IMG/VR virus record: IMGVR_UViG_3300034073_000383
Location: 1-27,651 of that record
Source: a virus
Reading direction: 5' to 3' (one strand)
DNA length: 27,651 nt
Translations under genes and position numbers: made by a program
In this document: positions 10,417 to 27,651 of the stretch, piece by piece
Position numbering within the stretch: the stretch's first letter is position 1
Layout of the letters: each line of letters opens with the position of its first letter
Notes under the pieces: generated by a model
Told to the model about the DNA's origin: nothing
Database searches by the model: none
The model's input: the letters and a program-made list of their open reading frames with translations, nothing else

Positions 10417-10916
10417 ACTATTTTGCAGAAAAAATCATAGGGCTAGTACTTTGTACCGTATTCGGCTTTACGGTCGCTGTAGGGGCTCCTGACGCGTCTG
10501 GTAGCCCGTCTGGGACTATTGCCTTAGCCCCGTTTTTGATAGAGCCAAGCACCACTACGTCAAGCACGTCGTCCACAATTTACATTGACCCGTACACGTC
10601 AGCTTGTGAGCAGTTCAGCGCGCTAGGCGTAAACCTTGGCTGGCCTGCCGATCAGCGCACCGTGCTCGAATCAATCATGTTTCGTGAATCACGCTGCATA
10701 CCAAACGCGGTAAACAGCGACGACCCAAACGGTGGCAGTCGTGGGCTAATGCAAATAAACGGATTCTGGACACCATGGCTTATTGATGCCGGCATTATCA
10801 CTAGCCCAAAAAACTTGTTACAGGCTGATGTTAATTTGCGCGCAGCGTTAGCAATTTACAATTACGGGGTTGAGCGTCACGGTTACGGCTGGGGCCCATG
10901 GAGTGCAACAAAATGA
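10413..10916 (+). CDS. Secreted lysozyme-like lytic transglycosylase
   Basis: A 167-aa protein with an N-terminal signal or membrane segment (IIGLVLCTVFGFTVAVGA, residues 8-25) and a Ser/Thr-rich linker. An SLT/lysozyme-like domain occupies about 62-167: E92 in MFRESRC as likely catalytic Glu, GLMQING at 111-117, and AIYNYG near 147-152. It would cleave glycan strands from outside the membrane. It could aid lysis with the M15 endolysin, or act during entry if packaged. The start at ATG 10413 is chosen over the upstream frame extension to 10383 because of the ATGA overlap. Confidence 0.75.
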   Translation: MNYFAEKIIGLVLCTVFGFTVAVGAPDASGSPSGTIALAPFLIEPSTTTSSTSSTIYIDPYTSACEQFSALGVNLGWPADQRTVLESIMFRESRCIPNAVNSDDPNGGSRGLMQINGFWTPWLIDAGIITSPKNLLQADVNLRAALAIYNYGVERHGYGWGPWSATK

Positions 10917-11176
10917 GCGAAGGTAGCGCATGGAACCAGGGCGAACTTACCGAAGAAACCCGACGAATGGTATTGGAGCAAACAGCAATGACTAACCACA
11001 CAATGGCAATGTTCGGATTAATTGACGACATTATGGCGGTCAGCAAAAACCCACACGCAAGCATCATCCAACGTCTGAAGACAATGAAAAACCAGTTGTC
11101 ACTAGAAGACCCGATGCCGCTTTACGATGTGACTACACTCGATCTAGCAATCAAAGCACTACAAGCACATTCCTAA
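10913..11176 (+). CDS. Conserved hypothetical protein, 87 aa
   Basis: Starts at ATG 10913, overlapping the lysozyme stop (AAAATGAG). An in-frame ATG at 10898 would add five residues. It is a mainly helical protein with TEETRRMVLEQTAMTNHT and a conserved C-terminal PMPLYDVTTLDLAIKALQAH. The middle varies between genome copies; both ends are conserved. No family recognised. Confidence 0.6.
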   Translation: MSEGSAWNQGELTEETRRMVLEQTAMTNHTMAMFGLIDDIMAVSKNPHASIIQRLKTMKNQLSLEDPMPLYDVTTLDLAIKALQAHS

Positions 11177-11197: not shown

Positions 11198-11596
11198 ATG
11201 AAAACCTGCACAATTTGCAAAGGCTCAATCGCCTACCCAGACATACAAGGAAAAACACACTTCGTATGTGACGGCCGTGTGCCGGCAAAAAAACTTGCGC
11301 CATTCATTCAAGGAATGTTGGCGTCACAGTCGTCTGCTGATGCGCGTTGGACACGCGATGAACAAAACAAAGTTGATGCAGCGATCTTGCACGTTGCGCG
11401 CACTAAAGGGTTTTTCACATCTGACGACATTTGGCAACACCTAGGCGACCAGTTCCCTGTTACTAAGGGCATCGCTGGACGGTTGAACGCAGCTGCACGT
11501 CGTGGCATTATTCGCAACACAGGCGAATTGGCATACGCCCAGCGCGGTGGCGCACATGACCATGCACAACGTCTAAGCGTTTGGGCAGGTGTGTGA
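11198..11596 (+). CDS. Putative DNA-binding protein: zinc-ribbon start and winged helix
   Basis: A 132-aa protein with an AGGAG RBS. The N-terminus has C4-x2-C7 and H21-x2-C24 (TICKG and HFVCDGR), likely a small metal-binding knuckle. The C-terminal 60 residues (SDDIWQHLGDQFPVTKGIAG ... RGIIRNTGELAYAQRGG) look like a winged helix. A regulator of phage transcription or a replication accessory would fit its place between the lysis and recombination genes. Function is inferred from the fold pattern only. Confidence 0.55.
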   Translation: MKTCTICKGSIAYPDIQGKTHFVCDGRVPAKKLAPFIQGMLASQSSADARWTRDEQNKVDAAILHVARTKGFFTSDDIWQHLGDQFPVTKGIAGRLNAAARRGIIRNTGELAYAQRGGAHDHAQRLSVWAGV

Positions 11597-11754
11597 TGAG
11601 TTTTGAGCAAATAGATTCAAAATTGCTGGAAAGAATTGCTGTTGCTTTAGAAGAAATGGTTGCATTGCAAAAAGATAACCAAAAGTTTTGGTACAGAATT
11701 GATAACAGTTTGGATGCAATAGAAAACGCAATAATTGCTGCTGGGGGCATCTAA
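11596..11754 (+). CDS. 52-aa helical protein, present only in copy A
   Basis: ATG 11596 overlaps the previous stop (TGATG) and its TAA overlaps the ATG of the next gene (TAATG), so it is tightly packed between two conserved genes. It is an acidic helical protein (SKLLERIAVALEEMVALQKD) with coiled-coil character. The base composition is clearly more AT-rich than its neighbours. The second copy lacks it completely: the flanking genes are joined directly at 26310. It looks like a recently gained or lost cassette. Confidence 0.6.
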   Translation: MSFEQIDSKLLERIAVALEEMVALQKDNQKFWYRIDNSLDAIENAIIAAGGI

Positions 11755-12299
11755 TGGGCTTTGATCTAAGCAACTACGAAACAGTCGAGCAACGCCTAGT
11801 GCGCTGGTGGGCTGCATACCCAAACGGGCGCGTGTACACAATGATGATGAACTACACAGGCGACGCTTGCGTGTTCTATTGCGAATTGTATGCCGACAAA
11901 GAAGACAAAGTGCCGGTTGCTACGGGCTATGCGGAAGAAATTAAAAGCGACCGCGGTGTCAATGCCACATCGTTTGTGGAAAACTGTGAAACCAGCGCGA
12001 TTGGTCGCGCGATTGCTAACTGCCCGTTACAGGCGCCTGCTAGTGGGCCTAGGCCGTCGCGTAATGAGATGCAAAAGGTCGAGCGCCTAACAACACCGCC
12101 GCAACCGCAAACGCACACACCCTCTGGCGCATTTGCCACACCTAAGCAGATTGGTTACATCAAGAAACTGGCCAAGGACGGCGGTTACGACGATCTTCGA
12201 CTATTGGAGTTAATCCAACGCGAACTAAACAGCGACGAAGCCGTTTTAGAGCTGTTGAAATCACACGAAGCAAGCAGAATCATTGAGGTACTGAAATGA
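11754..12299 (+). CDS. Phage recombination/ssDNA-associated protein candidate
   Basis: A 181-aa protein. The central signature VNATSFVENCETSAIGRAIA (residues 69-88) belongs to a family common in actinophages, found near recombination and replication genes, whose members are sometimes annotated as single-strand annealing proteins. The function is not firmly established. A Pro/Gln linker (about 100-125) leads to a helical C-terminal ATPKQIGYIKKLAKD domain. It lies upstream of a VRR-NUC nuclease, so a role in recombination or in concatemer or end processing would fit. Only a few residues differ in the second copy. Confidence 0.5.
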   Translation: MGFDLSNYETVEQRLVRWWAAYPNGRVYTMMMNYTGDACVFYCELYADKEDKVPVATGYAEEIKSDRGVNATSFVENCETSAIGRAIANCPLQAPASGPRPSRNEMQKVERLTTPPQPQTHTPSGAFATPKQIGYIKKLAKDGGYDDLRLLELIQRELNSDEAVLELLKSHEASRIIEVLK

Positions 12300-12442: not shown

Positions 12443-12627
12443 CTCTTAATGAATTAGTTGACGGATTGATTAAGCACTTAGAAGAACATCGCCGAAACAT
12501 CAAAATGATTGTTGAATTGCGATATGAATTAGAAAAGTGGCAATCGGTGGCCGTAAGTGCAATACCAGAAGAAGGTTTGATTGCGTCGTTAGATGCTTAC
12601 GATTACGAGCACAAAAATGAAGCTTGA
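12439..12627 (+). CDS. 62-aa hypothetical protein, present only in copy A
   Basis: ATG 12439 overlaps the stop of the interrupted small ORF (ATGA). Its end overlaps the start of the VRR-NUC gene by 11 nt. It is helical and charged: MTLNELVDGLIKHLEEHRRN, then YELEKWQ and an acidic end. The start MTLNEL resembles the MTLEEL of the preceding ORF, possibly a diverged tandem duplicate. The second copy lacks it and runs from the small ORF directly into VRR-NUC. Confidence 0.55.
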   Translation: MTLNELVDGLIKHLEEHRRNIKMIVELRYELEKWQSVAVSAIPEEGLIASLDAYDYEHKNEA

Positions 12628-12961
12628 CCCAAAGATCAGCGAAGCCGACTTCAAGGATGTGGTCATCAGCATTGCTAAGCGTTATGGCTGGCTAATTCAC
12701 CATGACTTGCCGGCACAAAACAGTCGAGGGCGCTGGGCAACACATGTGCAGGGCGATGTGGGTTTCCCTGATCTGTTCATGGTGCACCCATTCCAAGGCG
12801 GTCGGCCGTTAGTGATTGAGTTAAAGGCAGAAAAGGGTAAGACAACACCTGGGCAGAAGGTTTGGTTAAAGGCGTGTGAGTTGGCTGGATGTCATGCAGC
12901 GGTTTGGAAGCCAAGTGACATGGAGTACATTCTCTACACTCTCAGCAATCCAAGAATGTAA
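12617..12961 (+). CDS. VRR-NUC domain nuclease
   Basis: A 114-aa PD-(D/E)xK nuclease. SEADFKD (E9 as likely ligand), GDVGFPDLF (D52) and PLVIELKAEKGKTTPGQ (E68, K70) match the stand-alone VRR-NUC family, which acts on branched DNA or junctions. A role in resolving recombination or replication intermediates before packaging is likely. ATG 12617 is chosen because the second copy begins at the same residue with GTG. The structured non-coding region starts two bases after its stop. Confidence 0.85.
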   Translation: MKLDPKISEADFKDVVISIAKRYGWLIHHDLPAQNSRGRWATHVQGDVGFPDLFMVHPFQGGRPLVIELKAEKGKTTPGQKVWLKACELAGCHAAVWKPSDMEYILYTLSNPRM

Positions 12962-12962
12962 G

Positions 12963-13187
12963 CAATCGGCTAGTAGCAAGTGTGTGCCTCGGTCGCATGA
13001 GGTGGGCAGTAAACAGGGGAACCTGGGTAGACGGTCGCGCCTCGAATCATGCAAGACGAAATGGTTTGGGCAATGCGATCGGGCGATCAGTAAACAGACT
13101 GATGATGTAATGCAATAGGGATCTGGGATGGGCAATCCAGAGGGTGGAGCATTCACACATCTCTTGACCTGCAGATGACATACAGTT
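12963..13187 (+). ncRNA. Candidate structured RNA (undescribed)
   Basis: No credible gene lies here. Hand alignment with 27429-27651 gives a common fold. Helix 1 is CCTC/GAGG (12987-12990/12999-13002, loop with TCGCA). Helix 2 is CAGG-GGAA-CCTG (13014-13025), a GNRA tetraloop. Helix 3 is CGGTCGC/GCGATCG (13032-13038/13075-13081), continued by GCCT/GGGC (13039-13042/13068-13071). Helix 4 is ATCAG/CTGAT (13086-13090/13099-13103). Helix 5 is TGTAATGC/GCATT-ACA (13106-13113/13149-13157), enclosing helix 6, TCTGG/CCAGA with GGGC in the loop (13122-13141). Many pairs change on both sides between copies while pairing is kept. The spacing between helices 1 and 2 (11 nt) and between helices 2 and 4 (60 nt) is identical. 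GNRA loops point to the + strand. Function unknown. Confidence 0.75.
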
Positions 13188-13209: not shown

Positions 13210-13290
13210 ATGAACCCGACAACAAACATGACAAACAATTACCGAGAGCAAGGCGCTTGCGCCGCGCTAGCACAAGCCGAAGGCGCGTGA
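13210..13290 (+). CDS. Possible 26-aa leader ORF
   Basis: ATG 13210 to TGA 13288-13290 encodes MNPTTNMTNNYREQGACAAL and six more residues. It stops one base before the HNH gene start, so it could be a translational leader. The ribosome site is weak, there is no family match, and the second copy is cut before this point, so coding is unproven. Confidence 0.25.
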   Translation: MNPTTNMTNNYREQGACAALAQAEGA

Positions 13291-13291
13291 G

Positions 13292-13771
13292 ATGGCTCGA
13301 CCAAAAGGTTCAACACAGAAAAACAAACGTGCTGTTAGCCGTGTATGCGAACGATGCAATAAATCATTTACTCAACTTGGGTCAGGCCGTAAACAAAAAT
13401 ATTGCTGCAAACCAACCCCTAAAACCATTGTAAAAAAACAAGGAACTGCTATGACACGCGGAAATGAAATAGTAATTGCCGACAAACTCAAAAGAGGCGA
13501 ATGTGCTTTGCATCCCTATTACCACGATGGTCGCCGTAAATATGTAACCAAACAAAACCACGTCATGTTCGCATACGATCATTTAGACCGATCAATAAAA
13601 AAGGGAACGATTGCAAAACTAAAAGATGCTGGCCCGTATCAACTTGCCAAAGAATTAGCCAAATGCCAATTGCTTTGCCATAACTGCCATGCAATGAAAA
13701 CATATGAACAACGAGAACACGTCAAACATGACAAACCGAATTACCAACATCCAACGCTGTTTGACTTATGA
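13292..13771 (+). CDS. HNH endonuclease
   Basis: A 159-aa protein with an N-terminal zinc-finger-like CERC...CC (C19, C22, C38/C39). A C-terminal HNH core has D96-H97 in FAYDHLDRS and C129-x2-C132-H133 in LLCHNCHAMKT. It lies just before terL, and its stop overlaps the terL start (ATGA). HNH enzymes next to terminases assist cos cleavage in HK97-like phages; a homing endonuclease is the alternative. Its bases look more AT-rich than the terminase gene, which may mean separate acquisition. Confidence 0.8.
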   Translation: MARPKGSTQKNKRAVSRVCERCNKSFTQLGSGRKQKYCCKPTPKTIVKKQGTAMTRGNEIVIADKLKRGECALHPYYHDGRRKYVTKQNHVMFAYDHLDRSIKKGTIAKLKDAGPYQLAKELAKCQLLCHNCHAMKTYEQREHVKHDKPNYQHPTLFDL

Positions 13772-15495
13772 AAAACCCTGAATACTCCACCGACAGATAC
13801 AAGTCAGCCAGACATGAGCTGCTTCGAGACAGCCCAACATGCCATTGGTGTCATCGCAATCCAGCAACCGAATTAGATCACTTAATAGAAGTAGATCGTG
13901 GGGGTTCACTTGAGGATGGGTATGTGGCAAGTTGCAAGCCATGCAACAGCGCACGCGGAGCAATCCATCGCAATCGCAAACTAGCAAACGCAAAGCAAAA
14001 CAGAGAGAAAGCAATTAACGCTTTTTTATATGCAAACGATTTGACCCCGATCCCCAATGAAGATTTTGTCGCCACCAGCCCAAACCAGCCTGAACCAGCG
14101 GTAACTGGCCATGATCGGCCGAGACTGGAAACGATCATCCCAGACCATGCCGGGTCACTAGCTGGACTTGTGGGGGACATGGCTAAAAAGGTGTTGCAGA
14201 TTGATTTGATGCCTTGGCAAATACATGCTCTTGAGGGGATGCTGGCGGTTGATGCCGATCAGAAATTTGTGCATCGTTCAAGCCTTGTTTCGGTTGCACG
14301 TCAGAACGGCAAGACAACAATTATCCAAGCGTTGATCTTGTTTTGGCTTGTGGAGATGCCAAAGATTCGAGGCGGTAAGCAGACTGTTGTTTCGGGCGCG
14401 CACCGTTTGGATTTGGCTTGTTTGTTGTTTGATGATTTGGCACCAATCCTTGAGGAGTATTACGGCGCCAAGATCGTTAAGTCTTACGGCCGTTATCAGG
14501 CGACAATGCCAGACGGCAGCAAATGGTGGGTCAAAGCATTAAAGCCAAACCAAGGTCACGGCATGAGCATTGACCTAGTCGTGGTGGACGAATTATTTGA
14601 TGTCAATCCCGATTCCGTGGAGGGGGGTCTCTTGCCGGCACAGCGCGCTCGCAAAAATCCGCTTGCCTGTTTCTTTAGTACTGCTGGCACCGAGGAATCT
14701 GTGCTGTTCCAGCGTTGGCGTGAGGCAGGCATTCGAGCTATTGACAAAGGCGAGCCGTCCACGATGTACATGGCGGAGTGGTCGCCTGACCCAAGCCTTG
14801 ACCCGTTGCACCCAGCGTCATGGGCGTGGGGTAATCCTGCACTTGGCCACACGTTGGATATGGACACCATTAGGCAAGAATCAACAAACCCAGATCGGGC
14901 GTCATTTCTGCGAGCAAGTCTCAACCTTTGGGTGAGTGTTGTGCGCGGTTGGATTGAGCCAGGGCGTTGGCCGTCGTTGGAATACACAGGGGACATCCCT
15001 AGCGGTGGCGTCGTGGCGATTGAGTCTTCGCTGGACGACTCCCGTTACAGCGCGACCAGATGCGTCAACTTGTCTGACGGTCGGGTGCTTGTCACCGTCG
15101 CGTTCATTGCCGAGTCAATTACAGAGCTGTGGGACAACGTGCAAGAACTAGCCAAAGACCCCACGATCAGGTTTGCATTGTCGCCGACCGTGGACGCAAC
15201 CTGCCCACCGAACATCGAGCGCCGCCGAGTCGTCGTTGGCTATGCAGAACTTGGACGCTTTACACCGCTAGCCAAAAACATGATCGCCGAAGCGCGACTG
15301 TTGCACACAGGAGAAAAACTGCTTGCCGAACACGTCCAGCGCGCGGTCGCGGTACGCACGGACAACACCATAGTTTTGTCCAGCAAACGGAGTCCAGGGC
15401 CTATCGAGTTAGCGCGCACAATGGTCTGGGGTATTGGGATGTGTGCTCGTCCAGTTAACAGCGGAAAACCCATGCTTGTTGCGGTAAATAACTAA
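13768..15495 (+). CDS. terL: Terminase large subunit with N-terminal HNH domain
   Basis: A 575-aa packaging motor protein. Residues 20-70 form an HNH-type zinc domain: C25-x2-C28, D37-H38, GG at 45-46, C56-x2-C59-N60. After a linker comes the ATPase: a Walker A variant around R178-Q-N-G-K-T183 in SVARQNGKTT, Walker B LVVVDE (270-275), and a coupling motif FFSTAG (302-307). The C-terminal half (VVAIESSLDDSRYS and later acidic residues) is the expected RNase H-like nuclease. No separate small terminase is recognisable. The fused HNH may provide nicking or DNA recognition at the packaging site. The gene ends where the 127-bp repeat starts. Confidence 0.88.
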   Translation: MKNPEYSTDRYKSARHELLRDSPTCHWCHRNPATELDHLIEVDRGGSLEDGYVASCKPCNSARGAIHRNRKLANAKQNREKAINAFLYANDLTPIPNEDFVATSPNQPEPAVTGHDRPRLETIIPDHAGSLAGLVGDMAKKVLQIDLMPWQIHALEGMLAVDADQKFVHRSSLVSVARQNGKTTIIQALILFWLVEMPKIRGGKQTVVSGAHRLDLACLLFDDLAPILEEYYGAKIVKSYGRYQATMPDGSKWWVKALKPNQGHGMSIDLVVVDELFDVNPDSVEGGLLPAQRARKNPLACFFSTAGTEESVLFQRWREAGIRAIDKGEPSTMYMAEWSPDPSLDPLHPASWAWGNPALGHTLDMDTIRQESTNPDRASFLRASLNLWVSVVRGWIEPGRWPSLEYTGDIPSGGVVAIESSLDDSRYSATRCVNLSDGRVLVTVAFIAESITELWDNVQELAKDPTIRFALSPTVDATCPPNIERRRVVVGYAELGRFTPLAKNMIAEARLLHTGEKLLAEHVQRAVAVRTDNTIVLSSKRSPGPIELARTMVWGIGMCARPVNSGKPMLVAVNN

Positions 15496-27336: not shown

Positions 27337-27423
27337 GCGTTGTAAGGGTTAGATCGTTAAGGGCTGGAACTGATCATTCCTAACCAGCAATGGTGATTAC
27401 CTTCGGTCTAATCCTTAGAGCGC
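27337..27423 (+). other. 87-nt element closed by a 17-bp imperfect inverted repeat
   Basis: The arms at 27337-27353 and 27407-27423 pair over 17 positions with one mismatch and two G-T pairs (core TAAGGGTTAGA with TCTAATCCTTA). Inside, GCTGG and CCAGC can form a further stem. It starts directly after the VRR-NUC stop codon and is absent from copy A. No T-run follows, so it is not a classic terminator. It may be an extra domain of the adjoining RNA or a small inserted element. Confidence 0.6.
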
Positions 27424-27428
27424 TCAAA

Positions 27429-27651
27429 CAATCGGCTAGTAGCACGACCTAAGCCATTCGCACGGCAGTTGGTGACATCCGGTAACGGAGGTAGATCGGC
27501 GCGCCCCGAATCATGCAACACGAGATGAAACGGGCAAAGCGTCGAGGCGAGCCGTAAACATAATCGGCTAGTGAGTGCAAAGGGAACCAGGTTGGGCAAT
27601 CTGGTGGGTGGAGCATTCACACATCTCTTGACCTGCAAATGACATACAGTT
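27429..27651 (+). ncRNA. Candidate structured RNA, copy B
   Basis: Homologue of 12963-13187. Helices: GCC/GGC (27453-27455/27464-27466, loop ATTCGCAC); TCCG-GTAA-CGGA (27478-27489), again a GNRA loop; TCGGCGC/GCGTCGA (27496-27502/27539-27545), continued by GCCC/GGGC (27503-27506/27532-27535); AGCCG/CGGCT (27550-27554/27565-27569); GTGAGTGC/GCATTCAC (27571-27578/27613-27620); ACCAG/CTGGT with GGGC in the loop (27586-27605). The window ends at the conserved ACAGTT. Confidence 0.75.

Follow-up and report, generated by a model that had tools for sequence, protein, structure and literature searches.

The window analysed here, a 27,651-base record from an uncultured virus, contains two related tailed-phage genomes of ~15 kb in tandem, with portal genes at 98 and 15574. 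Their gene content is siphophage-like (portal, capsid-protease fusion, connectors, tape measure, lysis genes, VRR-NUC and HNH-TerL), and the main genes all lie on one strand. The HNH-TerL gene of the first genome lies at 13768-15495, and the second genome breaks off at the contig end, inside a region that follows VRR-NUC in both genomes. A first-pass annotation had described this region (12963-13187 and 27429-27651) as gene-free and as an unrecognised structured RNA with covarying helices located after VRR-NUC. Both claims held, the latter with stronger support than had been claimed, and the boundaries were refined to two conserved cores, the second of which lies just before the end of the contig. 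The presence of two RNA copies in one record probably reflects two co-occurring genomes joined into a single contig. The principal features are as follows (R1 denotes the covariance model described below).

12593-12961, + strand: VRR-NUC nuclease gene (PF08774), the usual upstream neighbour of the RNA
12962-12977, + strand: conserved 5' leader of the CAAUCGGCUAGUAGCA type, beginning at the VRR-NUC stop codon
12973-13155, + strand: conserved core of the RNA, copy 1 (R1 match, covariation)
13292-13771, + strand: free-standing HNH gene (PHROG HNH), an optional insert between RNA and terminase that most relatives lack
13768-15495, + strand: HNH-TerL fusion gene (PHROG and Pfam), the invariant downstream partner
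14046-14056, + strand: inferred overhang of the cohesive end (cos), CCCGATCCCCA, within HNH-TerL (from contig ends that relatives share)
27337-27428, + strand: additional stretch able to form hairpins, located between VRR-NUC and copy 2 of the RNA, GGGUUAGAUCG...CGGUCUAAUCC (from sequence alone)
27439-27619, + strand: conserved core of the RNA, copy 2 (R1 match)

Covariation supports a conserved RNA structure

Scans of viral contigs with TerL as bait recovered 281, 283, 416, 377 and 434 relatives per scan, in overlapping sets from which the best 80 were kept each time, and a search with the RNA pattern alone returned at least 120 stretches. The homologues span hundreds of viral contigs, with TerL identity down to ~50%, and include 98 distinct sequences of the main type. 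A covariance model, R1, has 182 positions and 39 base pairs arranged in eight helices plus a pseudoknot, and scores the two copies in the window at 168.8 and 207.8 bits, respectively.

Folding of the single sequences was only mildly better than chance (z-scores of -2.3 and -1.8 for the two copies), and the case for structure therefore depends on comparison. When 70 homologues were aligned with MAFFT without structure information (alignment A2), 26 of 42 pairs showed changes on both sides and 93.7% of cells were paired, a level reached by none of 500 shuffles; sliding the partners by 1-3 columns reduced pairing to 30-44%. Among the 98 model-aligned homologues, 37 of 39 pairs displayed compensatory change, 95% of cells could pair, both-side changes occurred in 641 cells, and the covariation score was 0.529, compared to 0.177 in shuffles (0/500 reaching the observed value). 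Because the structure guided the latter alignment, this alignment is biased in its favour. To control for relatedness of the sequences and for the exchange of helix modules that has evidently taken place among phages, we ranked all 15,630 column pairs by APC-corrected mutual information: ranks 1-14 were all pairs of the structure. On the RNA strand, G-U cells (259) outnumber A-C cells (81, of which one weak pair accounts for half), and this excess fits an RNA of the + strand. Coding potential was absent across the homologues, each of the six frames being free of stops in only 2-20 of the 98.

The test for a conserved structured RNA, namely compensatory changes beyond those in shuffled and slid controls, was met, and the region very likely encodes a functional structured RNA on the + strand. 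Three outcomes had been named in advance as refuting the first-pass annotation. The loss of covariation upon addition of homologues did not occur, covariation being overwhelming by shuffles, slid partners and mutual information alike; nor was there a conserved open reading frame spanning the RNA (six frames, 98 homologues) or a clear match in a library of 4227 Rfam families.

Architecture of the RNA

Across the family, the RNA measures roughly 140-180 nt, and its elements follow one another in the order H1 (UCGC loop), H2 (GNRA), GGGUAGA, H3 with its inner helices, GCGA, H4 and H6 around H5. In copy 1, these elements map as follows.

12988-13001, + strand: hairpin H1 with invariant UCGC(A) loop (4/4 pairs compensated)
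12993-12996, + strand: pseudoknot strand 1, UCGC in the H1 loop, partner of GCGA 13083-13086
13014-13025, + strand: hairpin H2, CAGG-GGAA-CCUG, with a GNRA tetraloop (100% paired, 4/4 compensated)
13032-13038/13075-13081 (overall 13032-13081), + strand: helix H3 (covariation)
13041-13044/13067-13070 and 13047-13050/13061-13064, + strand: inner helices within H3 (covariation)
13083-13086, + strand: pseudoknot strand 2, GCGA, partner of UCGC 12993-12996
13086-13103, + strand: hairpin H4, AUCAG-UAAACAGA-CUGAU, with UAAACA loop (covariation; missing in subtype B)
13109-13153, + strand: helix H6, AAUGC 13109-13113/GCAUU 13149-13153, surrounding H5 (covariation)
13122-13126/13137-13141, + strand: hairpin H5 within H6, UCUGG/CCAGA, with GGGCAA loop (covariation)

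The initial estimate of at least six helices was thus refined to eight and a pseudoknot, and every helix pair originally named was found in place in both copies: CAGG/CCTG at 13014-13017/13022-13025 (GGAA loop) is replaced by TCCG/CGGA at 27478-27481/27486-27489 (GUAA loop), CGGTCGC/GCGATCG at 13032-13038/13075-13081 by TCGGCGC/GCGTCGA at 27496-27502/27539-27545, TCTGG/CCAGA at 13122-13126/13137-13141 by ACCAG/CTGGT at 27586-27590/27601-27605, and ATCAG/CTGAT at 13086-13090/13099-13103 by AGCCG/CGGCT at 27550-27554/27565-27569. The conserved unpaired segments are CAUGCAAnACGAAAUG, UAAACA, GGGCAA and UCGCA.

The pseudoknot loop reads UCGC in all 98 main-type sequences and the pair becomes UUGC/GCAA in 25 of 29 sequences of the shorter subtype B. 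This compensation divides two clades and might represent a single event. The last base of the GCGA strand may instead close H4 (13086-13103), so that the outermost pseudoknot pair and H4 compete for it. The two natural subtypes, the shorter of which lacks H4, together with the covariance model already set a minimal core for testing.

In some relatives, the conserved 5' leader is swapped for a longer domain closed by GCUGG...CCAGC. The loci L034, L222, L231 and L236 and the window (27337-27428) have, ahead of the core, an additional 5' domain that is optional and contains further hairpins; in several loci it is closed by GCUGG...CCAGC.

Distribution and genomic neighbourhood

R1 matched all 47 TerL loci of the second batch, including those with TerLs ~50% identical, and 37 of 38 loci of the third, the sole miss being a locus with no more than 219 nt of sequence before TerL. 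The RNA is kept in every examined member of one lineage of uncultured tailed phages of ~15 kb. No close DNA relatives of the window were found in the phage collection, the closest TerL matches among cultured phages fall below 30% identity, and an R1 search of four cultured small actinophages gave no match. Retention of ~180 nt in every examined member, in genomes of only ~15 kb, suggests that the RNA is likely to be essential to these phages, an inference from conservation. That such a large and strongly covarying RNA family has been overlooked is explained by its phages being uncultured. The single match to the RNA pattern among 84,980 bacterial and archaeal species, in a planctomycete contig, lies within a gene, is R1-negative and was dismissed as chance.

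The surroundings of the RNA are similarly constant. All 89 RNA-pattern hits followed by 450 nt or more of sequence have HNH-TerL downstream in the same orientation, and all 109 hits preceded by 1 kb or more have VRR-NUC no further than 1.5 kb upstream. In the shorter subtype (L411-L413), the gene immediately 5' of the RNA is an annealing-protein-like gene. Whichever gene lies upstream, the RNA begins at or near its stop codon, loci with the extra 5' domain being the exception. The linkage to HNH-TerL persists even when other genes are inserted between the two, namely an HNH gene in the window or a methyltransferase-like gene in L145. The earlier statement that the RNA precedes the HNH-terminase genes accordingly holds for the HNH-TerL fusion, the free-standing HNH gene being an optional insert only; since the RNA directly precedes the fusion in most relatives, a special tie to the free-standing HNH gene is unlikely.

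Among 154 distinct segments upstream of the RNA, none contained a sigma-70-like promoter, and none of 141 downstream segments had a TTTT run indicative of a terminator. This absence is weak evidence, given that host promoters may differ from the sigma-70 consensus and that processing could release the RNA. Nevertheless, the start at stop codons of differing genes, combined with the lack of a recognizable promoter or terminator, makes it likely, in the absence of transcription data, that the RNA is part of a longer transcript.

An inferred cohesive end within the HNH-TerL gene

Independent contigs stop at identical bases within HNH-TerL, with right ends after ...GATGCC or its equivalent and left ends at the base directly after CCCGAGCCC(C)A; TerL codon 97 or 98 is the exact start of about two dozen loci (ends of the cos type occur in L228, L250, L301, L305, L356-L378 and L421-L480). 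In a scan, 213 loci, many of them overlapping records, had the 10-11 nt cos motif 3' of the RNA. These contig ends fit a 3' overhang trimmed during library preparation, and the inferred cos, which rests on sequence alone, is probably of this kind. HK97 has a 10-nt 3' overhang, and its HNH protein stimulates cos cleavage (PMC11331095). An assembly break at a conservation boundary may also contribute, but would not explain the abutting ends.

The inferred cos lies between the HNH and ATPase parts of HNH-TerL, and the reading frame is open through it in 79/79 distinct segments; production of full-length HNH-TerL would therefore require joined ends. In insert-free relatives, the RNA is located ~480 nt from the inferred right end of the genome. 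CCAG/CTGG repeats, for example, GACCAGCCTGAACTGGC...GACTGGTCATGACC, occur just after cos, at 14060-14150 and in the left ends of L356-L378. Although part of the terL coding sequence, they could, by analogy and without binding data, represent terminase-binding (cosB-like) sites.

Comparison with known RNA families and systems

Searches of 4227 Rfam families at gathering and permissive thresholds, with the window and eight divergent loci, yielded chance matches only, far below gathering. The phi29 pRNA model gave no relevant match in the region at gathering or at E<=10, and none at E<=1 in the eight homologous loci; HEARO and omega RNA, RNase P, group I introns and all other Rfam families likewise gave no match in the region and these loci. 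ARAGORN and Rfam detected no tRNA or tmRNA, and no published description of the RNA was found in the openly licensed PMC literature searched. The RNA is thus almost certainly the founding member of a new, uncatalogued family. The newness concerns the RNA family; its mode of action may prove to be of a known kind.

Several known systems provide partial parallels. Like phi29 pRNA, which is similar in size, the new RNA is a structured RNA carried by phages and linked to packaging by gene context, and it combines a conserved fold with variable helix sequences and short complementary loop and strand sequences; by contrast, it has a different helix arrangement and no Rfam match, and its phages carry an inferred cos and HNH-TerL rather than a terminal-protein genome. 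The HK022 put and EAR elements are structured untranslated RNAs that lie inside or head a long operon and act in cis as antiterminators. The new RNA likewise sits in cis ahead of a long operon of the same orientation, but has a larger fold, matches no Rfam family and shows no evidence of an effect on RNA polymerase. HEARO and the IscB-associated omega RNA similarly lie upstream of an HNH-domain gene, whereas the partner here is a TerL with an N-terminal HNH domain, not of the IscB type, in which PHROG and Pfam searches recognised no RNA-guided nuclease domain. GOLLD, ROOL and other ornate phage or bacterial RNAs are also large and structured, have a structural or unknown role and are in some cases phage-borne (PMC12286853), but they are much larger and the new RNA matches no Rfam family. 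At the level of genomes, the Decurrovirus phages Maggie and Toulouse and the Orlajensenviridae phages Azizam and Quaker are comparable siphophages of 15-17 kb with a capsid-protease fusion and an HNH gene at the right genome end; they differ in lacking an R1 match, in encoding HNH and TerL as separate genes and in carrying gp1-gp3 between the genome end and TerL.

Possible functions of the RNA

Packaging, HNH function and operon control had originally been entertained as roles; these can be narrowed to an operon leader versus a packaging RNA, between which the data do not decide. We lean slightly towards a cis-acting leader of the packaging/late operon, while recognizing that even this reading falls short of being probable. 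In this scenario, the RNA would be transcribed, but not translated, as a folded leader placed where the early genes give way to the packaging/late operon (HNH-cos-TerL-portal-capsid-tail-lysis), and would control expression of the latter in cis, most likely through modification of RNA polymerase (processive antitermination, as with put and EAR) or through timed translation of HNH-TerL. The main genes are all on the strand of the RNA, which therefore heads the packaging/structural block, and it is this position, together with the strict cis linkage and the lack of an own promoter or terminator, that favours the leader. Against it, the elaborate fold and the many invariant unpaired residues are equally expected of a trans-acting ribonucleoprotein, and synteny is strong anyway in such small genomes. 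The spacer after the RNA is rut-like (C>G), but not exceptionally so genome-wide, leaving control by Rho without direct support.

The main rival, which remains possible in the absence of biochemistry, is a packaging RNA, a component of the terminase/portal motor that would do the job of TerS, like phi29 pRNA. The constant proximity to HNH-TerL and the inferred cos speaks for it, and the elaborate fold keeps it in play; furthermore, the interval between cos and TerL holds no gene, whereas the cultured relatives have gp1-gp3 there, no TerS was recognised by PHROGs among the scanned proteins, and the complementarity of loop UCGC and strand GCGA makes intermolecular pairing feasible. However, PHROGs miss TerS in the cultured relatives too, rendering its apparent absence a weak argument, and a conserved 92-aa helical protein (10898-11173; model pLDDT 70.7, pTM 0.44) remains a TerS candidate. 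The CCAG/CTGG repeats look like ordinary protein-binding sites, no own promoter or terminator and no Rfam match were found, and the longest complementarity between RNA and cos (7.13 versus 6.94 nt) is no more than chance. In a bolder version, which is conceivable, the RNA forms part of the packaging motor, as a structural or a regulatory element, and takes the place of the small terminase throughout a large lineage of tiny phages; if true, packaging RNAs would have been invented a second time, independently of the phi29 group, in phages with cos and an HNH-TerL fusion.

Some specific candidates were rejected. Guidance of cos recognition by the RNA was discarded, complementarity to cos being that of shuffled RNA. 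The 132-aa protein (11198-11593) cannot be a universal TerS, being missing from 20 of 39 long contigs, and the 181-aa protein (11754-12296) resembles, by eye, a single-strand annealing protein. The latter is present in 38/39 long contigs, carries the motif NCETSAIGRAIA and has PHROG matches only of unknown function.

Another kind of trans-acting RNA, processed from the transcript and acting on host machinery or defence as an sRNA, decoy or ribonucleoprotein scaffold, appears unlikely: the complex fold with conserved unpaired segments and the presence in all examined members despite very small genomes would suit it, but the position is fixed to one operon, no promoter or terminator is visible, and lineage-wide presence is unusual for anti-defence accessories. 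Finally, the idea that the region acts as DNA (within cos, or as a recombination or packaging site with inverted repeats) and not as RNA has in its favour only the ~480 nt to the inferred right end and is very improbable in view of the multibranched fold, GNRA loops, pseudoknot, G-U excess over A-C and the location of the inferred cos elsewhere, inside TerL. Whichever of these readings is correct, the fixed spot beside the terminase provides a handle for testing a link to packaging of the genome or control of late genes.

Additional elements and double-length contigs

Downstream of the RNA, GC-rich hairpins precede the next start codon (13246-13294), GGCGC-loop-GCGCC and AGCNCAAGC..GCGNGAG, in the latter of which N varies with its partner (A/U, G/C, C/G) across relatives; they might constitute a second RNA element. 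A short open reading frame (13210-13290) with the start ATGAACCCGACAACA also comes after the RNA; in relatives this start opens a longer gene (methyltransferase-like in L145), and the short frame could be a remnant or a leader peptide.

Double-length contigs were seen repeatedly, including the window, L063 (26290), L076 (29086), L353/G006 (24740), L065 (30518) and L387 (30575). They may be assembly joins via the highly conserved TerL or genuine mixed concatemers. The window and G006 carry two RNAs apiece, those of G006 lying 14.7 kb apart.
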